This document shows positions 6,365-27,663 of a stretch of 64,000 nt of DNA, piece by piece. This DNA is from an uncultured Alphaproteobacteria bacterium (GTDB lineage: Bacteria > Pseudomonadota > Alphaproteobacteria > Rhodospirillales > Rhodospirillaceae). Each line of letters begins with the position of its first letter. Positions within the stretch are counted from its first letter, which is position 1. A program made the position numbers and the translations under genes. The stretch is from positions 62,001 to 126,000 of the forward strand of contig CACGTM010000001.1 in assembly GCA_902575965.1 (NCBI GenBank), read 5' to 3'. Below the pieces are notes generated by a model. The model saw only the letters and a program-made list of their open reading frames with translations, had not been told where the DNA came from and ran no database searches.

Positions 6365-7024
6365 ATGAGGTTTAGATTCTTTTCTGTCTGCTCTTTACTA
6401 ATAATATCTATATCCTGTTTTGCCAAAGAGCAAGAAAATCATGAAAGTAAAGTGCTACTTGACTTTATAAACAAAAATTTACCAGGTTTTTATCAGACTA
6501 TACCCAATAACAGATCTATAAAGAATGGAAATAATTTTACTTTAAGCACAATTATAGTGCCTTTAAAGAAAGATGACGTTGGATACAATTTATTTTATCT
6601 AGAAGAGTTTAAAGATAACAACCCAAAGATGGTTGTTCGACGGAGGATATATTCTTTTTGGATAGAAAATGACAAAGTAAAATTAAAACTATTTAACCCT
6701 CGTAAAGAGCTAAAATTTCCTCCTCTTGATTTAAATTATCAAAATGGAATACCATTTAGATTGGACTTCATAAAATCACTAAGCTCTGAAGATTTTTATG
6801 CAGACAGAGATGTTTGTATTCTTCATATAAATAAATTTATGAAAAAAGTAGTAGCTAGGATGGGAACTCATAAATGCAATAGAGAAGAAACTTGGATTGA
6901 TTACGAATTAATAATTGGAAAAGATGGCATGTGGACATGTTTTGCAAGAAGAAATATTAAAGATGATTCTCTTTTTTGGTTACAATCACCAGACGCACCT
7001 TGTTTGTGGCAGCTCAGAAATTAG
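6365..7024 (+). CDS. Exported protein, possible CpeT/CpcT-like fold
   Basis: Signal peptide MRFRFFSVCSLLIISISCFAKE, then LPGFYQTIPN, VVRRRIYSFWIEND; weak family-level resemblance. Confidence 0.4.
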   Translation: MRFRFFSVCSLLIISISCFAKEQENHESKVLLDFINKNLPGFYQTIPNNRSIKNGNNFTLSTIIVPLKKDDVGYNLFYLEEFKDNNPKMVVRRRIYSFWIENDKVKLKLFNPRKELKFPPLDLNYQNGIPFRLDFIKSLSSEDFYADRDVCILHINKFMKKVVARMGTHKCNREETWIDYELIIGKDGMWTCFARRNIKDDSLFWLQSPDAPCLWQLRN

Positions 7025-8288: not shown

Positions 8289-10583
8289 ATGTCATCATTA
8301 AAAAAGTCTTATGGCCCCCTTAAGGGTTTGCGTGTTCTAGATTGCGGAACTGCAATCGTAGGTCCGTGGGCAGCTACTCTTCTTGCATTCCTCGGTGCAA
8401 AGGTTATTAAGCTTGAGAGACCATCAGGTGAAATAACAAGATTGGCAAGGCCTCACCAGAATAATTGGTCAACAGCTTATACTGTTGCAAACTTATGTAA
8501 AATGTCTGCAGAAGTAGATTATAAGGATCCTAAAAGTAAAAAACATGTTGAAATGTTATTATCCGAAGCAGATGTGATTATAGAAAATTTTAGGCCAGGT
8601 GTTGCAGATAGAGTAGGAATTGGATTTCAGAAAGCTAAATCTCTAAATAAAAATATTGTATATGCATCTAGCTCTGGATGGGGTTATGAAGGTCCTATGC
8701 GAGACATGTCTGCTGTTGACTCACATTTACAGGCTTTTAGTGGTTTCGCATCATTAAATGGAGAAAAGGGAAAAAAACCTGAGATCTTAAGATATACGCA
8801 CATTGACCCGAGTGGAGGAGCCTTTTTAGCTGCGGGAGTATTATTAGGTGTTTTATTCCAAAAAAGATTTGGTTTAGCTAATCATATAGTAACAAGTCAT
8901 TTAGCAATGTCCTTGACAATGCAAGCTTCTAAGTTAGCAGAGTCATTATCTACCAATAAGCCAATTGATAGATTTGGAAGTGAATGTTCGGCTAGTGTTC
9001 CAAATTCATGTTTTCTGACGTTAGATAAAAAATATATCTCAATATCTGTACAAAATAATCGGCAGTGGGAATCTTTTTGTAAAGCTCTTGACGAAGTCTC
9101 TTTGCTTAGAGATGAGCGTTTTTCAACAAATTTGTTAAGAGTTACTAACAGGGATGATTTAAAAAAAATTATTTCAGATAGAATCTCTTCTTTACCTCTT
9201 AGGTGGTGGAATATTCGTTTTTTAAAATTTAATGTACCTGCCAGTCCAATTATGGATGCCGATAGTTTATTTTCAAATATTCATGTTAGGGATAATGAAT
9301 TTATAGTTGATATAAATACACCACATGCGGGTGTAATTAAAACAGGTGGCTTGCCATGGTCTTTTAAAAATAATCCCGCCTCTATGGATCAAATTTCCTC
9401 CTTTCCAGGTGCAGATACCGCCAAGGTTTTGAAAAGTGGTTTTGGTAAAAAACAAAAAAATATTGATAGAACCTATAAAAAGCCATTAGATTCACTTCCT
9501 CTTACAGGTTTTAGAGTTGTTGACCTTTCTAGTGGATATGCAGGTCCTTTCATAAGCCTATTACTAGCAGATTCTGGTGCACTTGTTAAAAAAATTGAAA
9601 TTGGCGATGGCGATTGGTCAAGGGAACTTGCTCCAAAATCAGATAAAGCTAGCGCTGTTTTTGAGGCAATGAACAGAAATAAAGAAATTATAAAATATAC
9701 AACTATTAATGATGAATCAAAAAGTCAAATATCTGCAATGATAAAGGAGTCAGATGTTGTTATATACGACTCGAATGAAATATCTGGGTTTGAATTAAAG
9801 GAAATCATAAAGGAAGGAATGCATCCAAAACTTATTTCTTTAGGTTTATCTTATTATGGTGAGTATGGATATCTTAGTGGCAAGGAAGGAAGTGAGCTGA
9901 CGGTACAAGCTATGTCTGGATATTTGAGGTCTTTAGGTTCTATTGAGAATGAGCCCATACGGGTTGGTGCTGATATTTCTGAGAGTGCAGCGGTTTCAAT
10001 GGGGTTAGTTTCAATTCTCGCAGCTTTATACAATAGAGAGGATAGTGGTATAGGAGATAGTATACACGTTAGTAGACTAGGTGCACTTTTGTCTTTGCGT
10101 TCATTACAGTGGGCTGCTGTTAGTGAGCCAGATAGTTGGCTTGGCCCGTCTTATTGCTTAGCCGAGACAGATGAGCCTAGATATGGTTATAAAACTAAGG
10201 ATAAAAATATATTTGTTTCTATGATGAACTTGCGTGAAGAGAATTCATTTAAGATGATACTTGAAGATTTAGGAATGATAGAAGATTTGAAAAGTAACGA
10301 GAAATTTATTAAAGAAGGGAAAAACACAATTGGAATGGGCTACCTTACCCGGGAATACCATCATGTGTGGGAAAAATATTTTATAAATTTCACTTCAAAA
10401 GAGTTGTTAGATATATTTAATAAACATGGAGCAACGGCTGTTGAATTCCTTGAGTTAAATGAGTTATTCTCAAATAGTCAAATTATATCTCTAGGTATTA
10501 TACATGATCATAGGGGTCGCAAATTTCTCAGAGCACCCTGGGTGGGGTTATGGCCTCAGCCTGATATATTTACTGGATTTTAA
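8289..10583 (+). CDS. Double-domain CaiB/BaiF (class III) CoA-transferase
   Basis: N-half LKGLRVLDCGTAIVGPWAATLLAFLGAKVIKLE; C-half LTGFRVVDLSSGYAGPFISLLLADSGALVKKIE; two family III domains in 764 aa. Confidence 0.85.
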   Translation: MSSLKKSYGPLKGLRVLDCGTAIVGPWAATLLAFLGAKVIKLERPSGEITRLARPHQNNWSTAYTVANLCKMSAEVDYKDPKSKKHVEMLLSEADVIIENFRPGVADRVGIGFQKAKSLNKNIVYASSSGWGYEGPMRDMSAVDSHLQAFSGFASLNGEKGKKPEILRYTHIDPSGGAFLAAGVLLGVLFQKRFGLANHIVTSHLAMSLTMQASKLAESLSTNKPIDRFGSECSASVPNSCFLTLDKKYISISVQNNRQWESFCKALDEVSLLRDERFSTNLLRVTNRDDLKKIISDRISSLPLRWWNIRFLKFNVPASPIMDADSLFSNIHVRDNEFIVDINTPHAGVIKTGGLPWSFKNNPASMDQISSFPGADTAKVLKSGFGKKQKNIDRTYKKPLDSLPLTGFRVVDLSSGYAGPFISLLLADSGALVKKIEIGDGDWSRELAPKSDKASAVFEAMNRNKEIIKYTTINDESKSQISAMIKESDVVIYDSNEISGFELKEIIKEGMHPKLISLGLSYYGEYGYLSGKEGSELTVQAMSGYLRSLGSIENEPIRVGADISESAAVSMGLVSILAALYNREDSGIGDSIHVSRLGALLSLRSLQWAAVSEPDSWLGPSYCLAETDEPRYGYKTKDKNIFVSMMNLREENSFKMILEDLGMIEDLKSNEKFIKEGKNTIGMGYLTREYHHVWEKYFINFTSKELLDIFNKHGATAVEFLELNELFSNSQIISLGIIHDHRGRKFLRAPWVGLWPQPDIFTGF

Positions 10584-16257: not shown

Positions 16258-19288
<3,031 letters not shown>

Positions 19289-19296
19289 AGGGTTGC

Positions 19297-19327
19297 TCTG
19301 AAACCCTTATAAACAGTGGGTTTCAGA
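19297..19327 (+). terminator. Hairpin downstream of guaA (probable terminator)
   Basis: Perfect 10-bp inverted repeat TCTGAAACCC-N11-GGGTTTCAGA 9 nt after the guaA stop. Confidence 0.6.
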
Positions 19328-19462
19328 ATTTCAAATTTCTAAATCTGATTTTTTAAGTTATTGATTTTATTACCTTTTAAAAATCTTACTACAAAGAAAC
19401 TCACAAACCAGAGTAGCCATTGTAAACGATTATGACTTGTTTCATTATTAAACAAACTAATG

Positions 19463-19678
19463 TTAATGATTCATCTTTTCTCGTGATGAAAATGGAGAAA
19501 CATACTTTATTTGAGCTGAACTCAAGTCTTTAAGTACATCACGATCTAATTGCAGAACAAGATGATATTCATAATTAGAGACAATACTAAAAGCAGGAAA
19601 GTCAGCTTCGTATCCAGGATTTCTATCACATACTAATCTATAATATGGAGTTTTATTATTATCGATTAGATGTCCCAT
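19463..19678 (-). CDS. Small hypothetical protein
   Basis: 71 aa ORF in a long intergenic region; no recognisable motif. Confidence 0.3.
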   Translation of the reverse strand: MGHLIDNNKTPYYRLVCDRNPGYEADFPAFSIVSNYEYHLVLQLDRDVLKDLSSAQIKYVSPFSSREKMNH

Positions 19679-19729
19679 AATGTTTCTTCTGCCAAATTAC
19701 AAACTTTGTAGTAATTATCTTGTAGCGAG

Positions 19730-19915
19730 CTCAAATTTTACTCGCTCTGTAGCCCCCATAAACAAAGGGCTTGTGACAGCACTGTTTATGAGTGGGTAAG
19801 TTCATGTAGGCGTGGTAAGCGTAATTGACGCTGATACACATGTGATGGGGCTTACCCTGTATGAGCACGTTAGCTCAGAGAGGTAAGTTTTTGCAGCAGC
19901 GATGTGCTGAAGAGG
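19730..19915 (+). other. Hairpin-rich leader/structured region upstream of GC-rich gene
   Basis: Nested inverted repeats: AGCGAG/CTCGCT, CATAAACA/TGTTTATG (19757-19790), GGGTAAG/CTTACCC (19794-19857) enclosing CATGT/ACATG and GCGT/ACGC, TGAGC/GCTCA (19862-19877), CAGCA/TGCTG (19894-19909). Confidence 0.5.
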
Positions 19916-19921
19916 TGGTTT

Positions 19922-20776
19922 ATGAATTTTATGAAAAAGAATAGTTTGTGTGTTGCGGCTGCCTTGTTTGGTTTGGCTCATGCATCCGTTGTTGTTGCAG
20001 AAGGTACTAAGCAGCTAGCAGCGGAGCAATCAGCGCGTCCGCTTTCGGCTTTCTTTGGGTTAGACAACAATCTGCCCTTTGGCGCTAATGTCCTGTGTTT
20101 AGGCGCGTGGGGTGAGGACGGTATGCCGGTGGTTTTGAGCCACACCGTTAACCCAGATTCATTGCAAGCTGAAGACTTCCGTGTGGTAAGGCTGTCCGGA
20201 GCCACTAACACTCCTATGTGTGTCACCCTGCGTCCAGCAAGCGACGTGGATGAAAATCGGACGGTTTTGCTGATTGGTGAATTTGGTAATGCCGATGATG
20301 ATCCGCCAGTTAAGGTGTTGATCGTAGACGATGTGCTTTCAGACGCCACCGACAGTCCCCAGCTGAACTTTCGTGGTACCCAAGTCTCGGTTATTCCTCT
20401 CGACGCCGGCCCAGAGATTATTTTGGCTGCGGCGGTGCCAAAGGATATCTGGTCGCTGTCGGGTCGGGGAACGTCTTGCCCCACCGCCACCAAACAAGTG
20501 GTGCGGGTGACCTGGACAGGTGGCGTGAGACTGCCCAACAGAGATGAGTTGGGCGAGGCACAGAGGAAGTTATATAAGGTAAGCCTCACCGCTGCGGATG
20601 GCTCTCGGTCCGAGGTGAGTCCGGCAGCATTGGCAGAACTAGGCGACGCCGACAACAACCACTTTCTTTGTCTGGACACGACCACGCCCGCTACCGCCGT
20701 GGCTTTTCCTGCGGGGCATTTGGTTGATCCGAACGGTGATCTAAATGCAGATTCCAAGGTTATGGTTCGCAGATAG
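19922..20776 (+). CDS. Exported protein of unknown function in GC-rich, probably horizontally acquired cassette
   Basis: ATG with GAGGTGG upstream; signal peptide MKKNSLCVAAALFGLAHASVVVAEG; codon usage (GCC, CTG, CGC, GGC) clearly unlike neighbours. Confidence 0.7.
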   Translation: MNFMKKNSLCVAAALFGLAHASVVVAEGTKQLAAEQSARPLSAFFGLDNNLPFGANVLCLGAWGEDGMPVVLSHTVNPDSLQAEDFRVVRLSGATNTPMCVTLRPASDVDENRTVLLIGEFGNADDDPPVKVLIVDDVLSDATDSPQLNFRGTQVSVIPLDAGPEIILAAAVPKDIWSLSGRGTSCPTATKQVVRVTWTGGVRLPNRDELGEAQRKLYKVSLTAADGSRSEVSPAALAELGDADNNHFLCLDTTTPATAVAFPAGHLVDPNGDLNADSKVMVRR

Positions 20777-20812
20777 TTCTAACCTGTACATTTTATCAAT
20801 GAAGATATAGAA

Positions 20813-20834
20813 ATTGGCAGAGCATACAGCCAAT
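20813..20834 (+). terminator. Hairpin after GC-rich gene
   Basis: ATTGGC-N10-GCCAAT inverted repeat followed by AT-rich sequence. Confidence 0.4.
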
Positions 20835-20864
20835 CTGTATAAAATAAAATATTAGAGAAAAAAG

Positions 20865-21470
20865 TTGTCAAAAAAAATTTTAAGAATTTCTGAAAGCCAA
20901 ATACCTGAAAGATTGAGAGATAACCGTCTTAAGCTATTAAGAAAGCTTGGAAGATTTGTCATCAATGTATCTGGTTGGGCTATAAAAGGAAAGATTCCTG
21001 ATGAGGAGAGAATTGTTCTAATTGCTGCTCCTCATACGTCAAATTGGGATTTTGTTTTGGCAATGTTTGCAGTTTTAGGTTTAAATATTAGGGTAAGATG
21101 GCTTGGAAAACATTCGTTATTTAAACCTGGTATTAAAAAGTTTTTTGAATGGTTAGGTGGGATACCTGTTTATAGGGATAATCCATCAACATTAATTGAA
21201 AATGTTGTAGATATAGTTAAAAAAGAAAAAAGTATTGCCATTGCTATAACACCTGAAGGAACCAGAAAGAAAGTAAAAAGATGGAAAACAGGTTTCTTGA
21301 GAATTGCAAAACAAACACAATCAAAAATAATATTAATTTCTATTGATGCACCGACAAAAACTATAGAGATAGGTAAGATGTTTGAGCCTACTGGTAATAA
21401 TGAAGAGGATTTAATGTATATCCAAAAATATTATAGTTCCTTCAGAGGAATTAAGCCCCAGAATTCTTAA
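20865..21470 (+). CDS. Lysophospholipid/glycerol-3-phosphate acyltransferase family (PlsC-like)
   Basis: APHTSNWDFVLAM, FEWLGGIPVYRDN, ITPEGTRKKVKRWKTGF; TTG start. Confidence 0.8.
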   Translation: MSKKILRISESQIPERLRDNRLKLLRKLGRFVINVSGWAIKGKIPDEERIVLIAAPHTSNWDFVLAMFAVLGLNIRVRWLGKHSLFKPGIKKFFEWLGGIPVYRDNPSTLIENVVDIVKKEKSIAIAITPEGTRKKVKRWKTGFLRIAKQTQSKIILISIDAPTKTIEIGKMFEPTGNNEEDLMYIQKYYSSFRGIKPQNS

Positions 21471-24258: not shown

Positions 24259-24485
24259 CCTAAAGAAAAAGATTACTGATAATAGTTAAATTCCTCAGTT
24301 ATTACAATGATTTCTAAGTTTTGGATAATTTTGGTAATTTTTAGTTTAAGAAAGAATCTTTTTTTAATCAATATTATCAATATCTTGCGAGTAAAAAAAC
24401 GATTATGAGGGAATAAGCAATACTCAAAATAAAGAGAAATCTGATAAATTAGGGATAATAAAGTTTAAAAAAAGAGGAAATAATT

Positions 24486-24746
24486 TTATCTCTTTAGAGT
24501 TTTCATCAATTCCTCAACTTTATCTTCAAACCCTTGATCGCTTTTTAGTGCACCTTTTAAACACGCTTTTAAATGACTTTGCAGAATTTTACCCTCAACT
24601 GTCGACAATGCATTTTTTACCGCTTTTATTTGGTTAAGAATATCGATACAATATTTTTCCTCTTCAATCATTTTAGCAATACCACGAACTTGACCTTCAA
24701 TTCTTTTGATGCTTGCTAATTGTTTTGTGTGTGATGGGTGGCTCAT
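24486..24746 (-). CDS. CsoR-type metal-sensing repressor
   Basis: 86 aa, IKRIEGQVRGIAKMIEEEKYCIDILNQIKAVKNAL...LQSHLKACL; Cys33-His58-Cys62 spacing matches Cu(I) CsoR (C36/H61/C65 in M. tuberculosis CsoR). Confidence 0.85.
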   Translation of the reverse strand: MSHPSHTKQLASIKRIEGQVRGIAKMIEEEKYCIDILNQIKAVKNALSTVEGKILQSHLKACLKGALKSDQGFEDKVEELMKTLKR

Positions 24747-25551: not shown

Positions 25552-26157
25552 CTAAAATCTATACATAAGATGTAAATCCCATTCAGTTTTATCATTATAC
25601 CCGAATTCCATAAGAACATTTCCTTTAAAGAATTTTAATACTGGGTAAGTTGACCATTCACTAATTAATGAATTCCTCTTTGTTTTTAACATTATCCAAG
25701 TATGAAGGTCCCCATAATTTCCTAAGTAGGGAGCAAACCCTAATTGGTAAGATTGATCATAGTAATCTTTTTTTTCGTTCTCAACTTGTTTAAGACTAAA
25801 GCCAAAAAACAACCTTCTAGTTTCCCAATCACCGTGAATTCCATAAAAGAAATTGTCAAATCCCTTGGAGCTTACCCCTGATTGGAAATAAAGATTTCTC
25901 TGAGAATTTTGGGTATTTTTACGATCTAAAAGATATGTAAATCTAAAGTAAGAGTAATTACTCCCAAAAAACTTGTCTTCAATGGCTTCTATTCCTAGTG
26001 AGTATTTGTGGCTTGGAGAGAAATGGTAGTAGATTGAGTTTTTCATATTATCTGAGAATGTCATCGCCGTTGAGCCCCCAGAATATGAGATAGGTCTCGT
26101 TTCACCACTATTTGAGACTAAAAAAAAGAATAGTATAATTAGTAACCTTATACCCAT
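25552..26157 (-). CDS. Outer-membrane/beta-barrel-like exported protein, first gene of metal operon
   Basis: Internal Met MGIRLLIILFFFLVSNSGE starts a signal peptide; alternating aromatic strands and C-terminal WDLHLMYRF. Confidence 0.55.
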   Translation of the reverse strand: MGIRLLIILFFFLVSNSGETRPISYSGGSTAMTFSDNMKNSIYYHFSPSHKYSLGIEAIEDKFFGSNYSYFRFTYLLDRKNTQNSQRNLYFQSGVSSKGFDNFFYGIHGDWETRRLFFGFSLKQVENEKKDYYDQSYQLGFAPYLGNYGDLHTWIMLKTKRNSLISEWSTYPVLKFFKGNVLMEFGYNDKTEWDLHLMYRF

Positions 26158-26167
26158 AGGGGGTATA
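26149..26167 (-). promoter_or_regulatory. Candidate CsoR operator
   Basis: Perfect palindrome TATACCC-N5-GGGTATA; TTGACT -35-like box at 26187-26192 upstream on the minus strand. Confidence 0.6.
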
Positions 26168-26223
26168 TTGTACGAAATTTGATTTAAGTCAATGTTTTTA
26201 TAATAGAAAGGTTTGAGAATAAA

Positions 26224-26595
26224 ATGTCTTATCAAAAAGATGTAGAAAAATTTATGCTTGCTGGAGAGCAATCAATTAACAAAGCCCTTGATCTTGAAAA
26301 CGACCAGTCTCGCCTATATATGAATCTTATCACTGAGGAATACAAAGAAACACTATCTGCTTATGAAGATGGTGATATGATAGAAGTAGCTGATGGTCTA
26401 GCAGATATGGTTTGGGTTATCATGGGAATGTGCAACAGTTGCGGTATTAATTTTGACTCTGTTTGGGAAGAAGTAAGAGCATCAAATATGAGTAAATTCA
26501 TAGATGGAAAATCTATAAAAAACGAACATGGTAAAATTATGAAACCAGCTACATACTTTAAGCCTAATATAAAGAAAGCTTTGGATATAGAATAA
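26224..26595 (+). CDS. MazG-like/phosphoribosyl-ATP pyrophosphatase-like nucleotide pyrophosphohydrolase
   Basis: LYMNLITEEYKETLSAYEDGDMIEVADGLADMVWVIMG: E-x-x-E and E-x-x-D pattern. Confidence 0.75.
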   Translation: MSYQKDVEKFMLAGEQSINKALDLENDQSRLYMNLITEEYKETLSAYEDGDMIEVADGLADMVWVIMGMCNSCGINFDSVWEEVRASNMSKFIDGKSIKNEHGKIMKPATYFKPNIKKALDIE

Positions 26596-26652: not shown

Positions 26653-27663
26653 ATGGATCCAATAACACAAGGCGCGGTTGGTGCGGCATTTGCACAGTCA
26701 TTAAGTAAAAGAAACAATTTATTACAGATTGCTTTGATTGGTTTTCTTGCTGGATTGGCTCCTGATCTAGATGTTTTGATTCAATCCTCAGACGATCCAA
26801 TCCTTTTTCTTGAATACCACAGGCAGTTTACTCATTCTCTTTTTTTTATTCCCATTGGTTCTTTAATTGTTGCTGAATGTGCTTTTCCTTTCTTTAAAAA
26901 AACACTAGGCTTTAAGATAGTATATAGAGCAAGTTTTTTTGGTTATGCAACACATGGTATTTTGGATGCTTGTACATCATATGGGACTTATATCTTTTGG
27001 CCTTTTTCTAATGAGAGAGTAGCGTGGAATATTATATCGATAGTTGATCCACTTTTTACTATTCCCATTATAATTCTTATAATTATTTCAATTGTAAAAA
27101 GAAAAATGATATTTAGTTTTTTTGCCGTTGGGTGGTTTGCGTTTTATCTATCTTTAGGTTTCTTGCAATATGAAAGAACATATATTGCAGCAAGAGAGCT
27201 TGCATATTCTAGGGGGCATAAAGCTGAACGACTGACCCTTAAGCCTTCATTTGGTAACATAATTTTATGGAAGTCAATTTATCAGCATGAACAAACTTAC
27301 TATGTTGATGCACTCAGGACACTTTATTCATCAATATGGTGTCAAGGTAGCAGTACAAAAGTTTTTGACTTTAATTATCATTTACCTGGTATTGACAAAA
27401 ATAGTCAGCAAGCAAAAGATGTTGAGAGGTTTCGTAGGTTTTCACAAGATTATTTAGGCTATGATAAAAAGAAGAGTCTTGTTACAGATATTCGTTACTC
27501 AATGCTTCCAAACCAAATTACTCCAATGTGGGGAATAATTATAGATGAAAAAAAAAGTAAATATGATCATGCTGTTTGGTGGATAAGTCAGAGTTTAGGG
27601 CAAGATCAATTAAAACTATATAGAGATATGTTAATTGGTAAAGCGTGTATAGTTTTCAAATAA
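26653..27663 (+). CDS. Membrane-bound metal-dependent hydrolase (YdjM/DUF457-like)
   Basis: MDPITQGAVGAAFAQSL; APDLDVLIQSSDDPILFLEYHRQFTHSLFFIP. Confidence 0.8.
   Translation: MDPITQGAVGAAFAQSLSKRNNLLQIALIGFLAGLAPDLDVLIQSSDDPILFLEYHRQFTHSLFFIPIGSLIVAECAFPFFKKTLGFKIVYRASFFGYATHGILDACTSYGTYIFWPFSNERVAWNIISIVDPLFTIPIIILIIISIVKRKMIFSFFAVGWFAFYLSLGFLQYERTYIAARELAYSRGHKAERLTLKPSFGNIILWKSIYQHEQTYYVDALRTLYSSIWCQGSSTKVFDFNYHLPGIDKNSQQAKDVERFRRFSQDYLGYDKKKSLVTDIRYSMLPNQITPMWGIIIDEKKSKYDHAVWWISQSLGQDQLKLYRDMLIGKACIVFK

Follow-up and report, generated by a model that had tools for sequence, protein, structure and literature searches.

The question raised by this locus is how a GC-rich block with a single gene came to lie behind guaA, the gene for GMP synthase, in an otherwise AT-rich alphaproteobacterial genome. 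We addressed it in a stretch of 64 kb (hereafter the window), for which the first-pass annotation had described a GC-rich segment of about 1.1 kb unlike its AT-rich surroundings, carrying one open reading frame (ORF) with its own SD. Both points hold. The best three-segment GC model of positions 19289-21470 places a block of 1.03 kb at 19743-20770 with 53.1% GC, compared with 29.7% and 30.9% on its two sides, and none of the 1-kb windows across the 64 kb approaches the GC content of this block. Its only ORF, 19922-20776, has GAAGAGGTGG directly 5' of the start, and its GC (53.8%) and GC3 (55.0%) lie 6.0 and 8.1 standard deviations, respectively, from the means of the other 55 long ORFs, which are 35.0% for GC (s.d. 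3.1, maximum 42.5) and 25.0% for GC3 (s.d. 3.7, maximum 35.6), the reference for this comparison being the ORFs of the 64-kb window only.

One scan of the genome collection returned seven relatives of the gene (loci L004-L010), and their DNA, together with the change point in composition, allowed the block and its surroundings to be described as follows:

19800-20782, + strand: GC-rich transferred cassette, delimited by the change point and by the DNA match to L004-L010.
19922-20776, + strand: coding sequence of a predicted exported protein of 284 aa (281 aa if the start is at 19931).
20777-20782, + strand: right end of the block common to the SAR86 copies (TTCTAA), with no attachment core visible.
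20865-21470, + strand: AT-rich acyltransferase-like gene (PF01553); one also follows the gene in the SAR86 locus L007.

Compared with the protein of the window, those of three proteobacterial MAGs (L004, L008, and L010) are 94-95% identical, those of two SAR86 loci (L005 and L007) 90-91%, that of the K189A gammaproteobacterium (L006) 85%, and that of a Thermoanaerobaculia MAG (L009) 60-64%. A third SAR86 copy is found in L019, and distant relatives are present in two other alphaproteobacteria (L012 and L013) and in another complete proteobacterial genome (L157), the last with a lipoprotein-like signal at its start. At synonymous sites, the gene of the window differs from that of L004 by a dS of 0.11, from those of SAR86 by 0.24-0.28 and from that of L006 by 0.53, and among all the 85-95% identical relatives, which span different classes, dS is 0.07-0.53; yet in the same genome pairs the GuaA proteins are only 73% (L004) and 52% (SAR86) identical, and the dS of guaA is saturated or above 2. 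The SAR86 copies also have 51% GC vs 36-37% in the surrounding 20-kb loci. Given the low dS and the 85-95% identity of proteins in genomes whose guaA genes are so diverged, the recent horizontal acquisition proposed in the first-pass annotation is strongly supported, and horizontal transfer as such is, on these sequence comparisons, certain. An ancestral gene of the family, which would have kept its composition and been lost from most relatives, might be suspected from the fact that L004, syntenic with the same-family genome G024, also has the gene behind guaA. This reading is contradicted by the contrast in dS between the gene and guaA in the window and L004, as well as by a GC3 of 55% where the regional mean is 25% and by the distribution of the gene, which, in 60 relatives searched, was found in the window's own genome and G024 only, the latter being the single one among the 59 others; we therefore consider it barely credible.

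The gene itself offers few clues to its function. The ORF starts with ATG, while the start of its relatives corresponds to the codon at 19931 (MKKNS), and its N-terminus, read by eye, resembles a Sec signal peptide, as had been suggested. No match to the protein was found in Pfam, NCBIfam, PHROG, phage, plasmid, Rfam, or PDB sequences, which agrees with the earlier failure to recognise a domain, and the decision to leave its role without assignment still stands. When seven mature sequences of the family are aligned, four cysteines prove invariant and a DxDNN motif is conserved. AlphaFold2, with eight sequences as input, gave pLDDT values of 44 and 47 and no usable fold; the immunoglobulin folds proposed by Foldseek, with a TM of about 0.15, are not evidence, and an internal duplication of the two halves of the protein was not supported. 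This is an undescribed and rare family of predicted exported proteins, present in 3 of the 204 SAR86-order genomes and in 3 of 290 genomes of the class of the window, its own genome included. Our guess at its role, although a somewhat unlikely one, would be binding or an accessory function outside the cytoplasm, by a protein rich in beta structure.

A chimeric contig, or contamination from another member of the community, could also place a foreign gene in this context. The assembly of the window's genome is only 58% complete, and the copies in L008, L010, and L019 stop inside the gene at a contig end, a pattern to be expected when genomes of a community share a sequence and the assembler is confused by its near-identical copies in several organisms. 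Against this, the contig has 174 kb and both flanks are alphaproteobacterial: the upstream order ppx-rrmJ-guaB-guaA and the downstream order at 43.8-51.1 kb, two methyltransferases-YfgM-BamB-Der (names given by reading the translations), correspond to those of L004 and G024, and positions 23.5-28.8 kb of the window are shared with the same-genus genome G001, whose assembly has no guaA. Moreover, the gene lies behind guaA in independent assemblies, including SAR86 genomes with single-cell names. From these sequence data a chimera, which would have undone the annotation, is unlikely, and in our judgment very much so.

Between the syntenic flanks, the alphaproteobacterial backbone holds a variable region with SAR86-like genes: a metal-dependent hydrolase (26653-27663), a CsoR-type regulator (24486-24746), and an ORF at 25552-26271 are 60-71% identical to SAR86 genes behind guaA. 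In the same region, where the window has a sequence like the end of guaA (ACGATTATGAGGGAATAA, 24399; region 24395-24420), G001 (L166, G001:C65) has an insertion of 3 kb with an aconitase B gene. The left junction of this insertion reads ACCATTGAGTTTGAATAG and then TTCATAAGTTATTGATATT and closely resembles DNA behind guaA in L005; it is possibly an occupied secondary site.

In SAR86, the last 4 bp of a dienelactone hydrolase (DLH) gene overlap the start of the transferred gene, and this DLH gene moved together with it (dS 0.12-0.19); outside SAR86 the neighbors vary. The acyltransferases that follow the gene in the window and in L007 are only 50% identical and thus did not travel recently with it. 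On the right side, the shared block ends six nucleotides after the stop codon (about 20782), where the window, L005, and L007 have TTCTA(A) in common and then diverge fully, and no attachment core was found at this border in any of the three. The two block ends have no clear inverted repeats, and the pair ATTGGC/GCCAAT (20813-20818/20829-20834) previously taken for a border has to be abandoned: its arms have 6 bp, in AT-rich DNA, it lies about 30 bp outside the shared block, and it is absent from the flanks of the other copies.

In the window, L004, L005, and L007 the gene lies directly behind the guaA 3' end region, starting 0.6, 1.5, 3.3, and 7.4 kb after guaA, respectively. These are four of the five near-identical copies for which a long stretch of upstream sequence is available. 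The copies of L006 and of the distant L009 are away from guaA, and no guaA was found within 17 kb upstream of the gene in L019/L020. The 3' end of guaA is a published hotspot of integration with the core GAGTGGGA, used by GIsul2 (PMC9376610), and the repeat of ICERspD18B at guaA is ACAATNGAGTGGGAATNNTT (PMC7775301). The following features occupy this end of the window:

17738-19288, + strand: guaA (GMP synthase; ORF end TIEWE*), the C-terminal part of the protein being 74-83% identical to GuaA of alphaproteobacterial relatives; the 3' end of the gene is the presumed chromosomal attachment site.
19271-19288, + strand: putative attachment core ACAATTGAGTGGGAATAA, containing GAGTGGGA, at which guaA islands integrate according to published work (PMC9376610, PMC7775301).
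19295-19323, + strand: X box 1, GCTCTGAAACCCTTATAAACAGTGGGTTT, an inverted repeat at the left end.
19463-19678, - strand: small ORF of 71 aa in the guaA-proximal segment, known from its sequence and translation.
19696-19714, + strand: arm-like repeat ATTACAAACTTTGTAGTAA, resembling the TACAAA/TGACAAACT repeats at the same position in SAR86 right ends.
19744-19772, + strand: X box 2, with 76% identity to the first box.
19785-19799, + strand: diverged copy of the guaA-end core, TTTATGAGTGGGTAA, which follows X box 2 with the box-core spacing of L005.

The core at 19785-19799 is presumed to be both the attR of the guaA-proximal segment and the left border of the GC-rich cassette. The score of box and core together (19744-19799) was reached by none of 400 dinucleotide shuffles, and no other 5-kb segment of the 64 kb, except that of X box 1 itself, has a rival site; the diverged core alone (GAGTGGGT) is not significant without its box, and a profile trained on SAR86 picks up the site at 19696-19799 only marginally. 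Direct repeats of the guaA end with GAGTGGGA at the far side are clear in SAR86, while the window has one diverged copy, found jointly with the X box. Positions 19204-19456 are 85% identical to the guaA end and following DNA of the SAR86 locus L007, with about 170 bp of the match, X box 1 included, lying behind guaA, and the 71-aa ORF had no homologue in the guaA regions compared. The picture of an isolated cassette without a mechanism is therefore superseded by that of a gene preceded by a diverged site and lying behind the guaA hotspot.

We compared the DNA downstream of guaA in 20 SAR86 and 20 alphaproteobacterial genomes, and counted the core pattern in 44 genomes, where the guaA-downstream regions have 20 occurrences on the + strand and none on the - strand, nearly all in SAR86. 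There, most cores come after an inverted-repeat box (near GGAAACCCTTATAAACACTGGGGTTTCAGA) and TACAAA/TGACAAACT repeats, and the cassettes stand in tandem, with one or a few genes between cores and a copy of the 3' end of guaA between one cassette and the next. In L005, the guaA end ACTATTGAGTGGGAGTAG is present at guaA (6693) and again at 9184-9201, directly before the pair formed by DLH and the gene, with a near copy at 8493; L020 has a core copy (16927-16991; E = 4.8e-8) directly before the same pair, L007 a guaA-end copy at 6909, and L004 a diverged core 20 bp after the gene. The same chromosomal place holds different cassettes in different genomes: a 108-aa cassette lies at the guaA stop codon in L086 and 4.8 kb from guaA in L085, and a 114-aa cassette with cores on both sides is common to L081 and L085, whose arrays are otherwise different. 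Not all junctions are of the core type, since the one before the 108-aa cassette of L085 has no core. Among the other SAR86 cassettes behind guaA (L005, 6827-8245; L007, 2854-6734), a protein with weak integrase-repeat units (PF14882) is encoded, as is a methyltransferase-helicase pair resembling a type III restriction system. In G042, G039, and G486 (L119, L120, and L099), guaA is followed by longer partial copies of its own 3' end.

In keeping with the annotation, which saw no transposase or integrase, none was found among the ORFs of the locus, and no integrase was found in cis near the gene or the guaA island. Genes of PF00589 were present in 18 of the 19 genomes searched, most SAR86 having only two, of XerC/XerD size, and the window's genome, with its assembly 58% complete, has one, on another contig (C23). 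The extra integrases of G530, G524, and G510 and two of G350 have no GAGTGGGA core near them and are probably not the guaA recombinase.

Taken together, we consider it probable that the GC-rich block is a transferred cassette in an additive flexible island at the guaA 3' end. A tyrosine integrase recognising the end of guaA (core GAGTGGGA) would insert small circular cassettes there, each insertion restoring guaA and duplicating the guaA end on its right side, so that cassettes already present would be moved downstream by every new arrival. The GC-rich gene of the window would be such an older cassette, displaced by a later insertion of 0.5 kb (19289-19799). As no integrase lies nearby, we infer mobilisation in trans, with the enzyme presumably encoded outside the island, on a helper element. 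Alternatively, the single gene may have arrived as naked DNA taken up by the cell, or through a gene transfer agent or phage, and been joined by illegitimate or short-homology recombination, the guaA site merely tolerating insertions. The gene-precise junctions, with no core at the right border in the window, L005, and L007, would fit such an origin, as would the coreless junction of L085 and the copies of L006 and L009, which are not at guaA; but three unrelated lineages carry the gene behind guaA, and a core copy precedes it in L005, L020, and the window and follows it in L004, and we regard this route as improbable. More tentatively, and with some doubt, the cassette reading may be extended to a guaA cassette-exchange system shared by uncultured marine SAR86 and alphaproteobacteria and resembling integrons, in which mini-elements that lack an integrase and have a compact site, composed of arm repeats, an inverted-repeat box, and a guaA-end core, would be inserted in tandem by one recombinase acting in trans, single genes being traded across classes.

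Few mobile elements can be recognised in the streamlined bacteria of the ocean, which nevertheless exchange genes. If there is a defined entry point and its borders can be read, this would explain the passage of single genes between SAR86 and alphaproteobacteria, and such borders make the gain and loss of cassettes countable in metagenomes. Several known systems are comparable. The guaA islands GIsul2 and ICERspD18B also insert at the guaA 3' end, with the core GAGTGGGA in direct repeat (PMC7775301; PMC9376610), but are larger and have their own integrase, whereas the units described here have 0.3-5 kb and one to few genes, lie in tandem and have no integrase in cis. The additive flexible islands of Methylopumilus (fGI-2) and Alteromonas likewise have variable cassettes at the same locus and repeats of the target-gene end; in fGI-2 the repeats are the last 20 bp of tRNA-Lys and sizes start from 330 bp (PMC10872708), and flexible-island cassettes are gained and lost by site-directed recombination (PMC5217437). 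They differ from the present case in its protein-coding target, its inverted-repeat box and arm-like repeats, and the same cargo gene across classes. Tycheposons are cargo islands in streamlined aquatic bacteria as well, but they are bordered by tRNA genes and carry a tyrosine recombinase (PMC10872708), while the border in the window is guaA and no recombinase was found at the locus. Integron arrays share the small tandem gene cassettes and the directional sites; however, no integron integrase was found at the locus, and what is repeated there is the end of guaA. Traits of insertion sequences or transposons were not found in the block, a single ORF without family match and with no clear inverted repeats at the block ends. 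Since guaA islands and additive flexible islands are known, the arrays of integrase-less mini-cassettes are a new variant of these systems and not a categorically new one.
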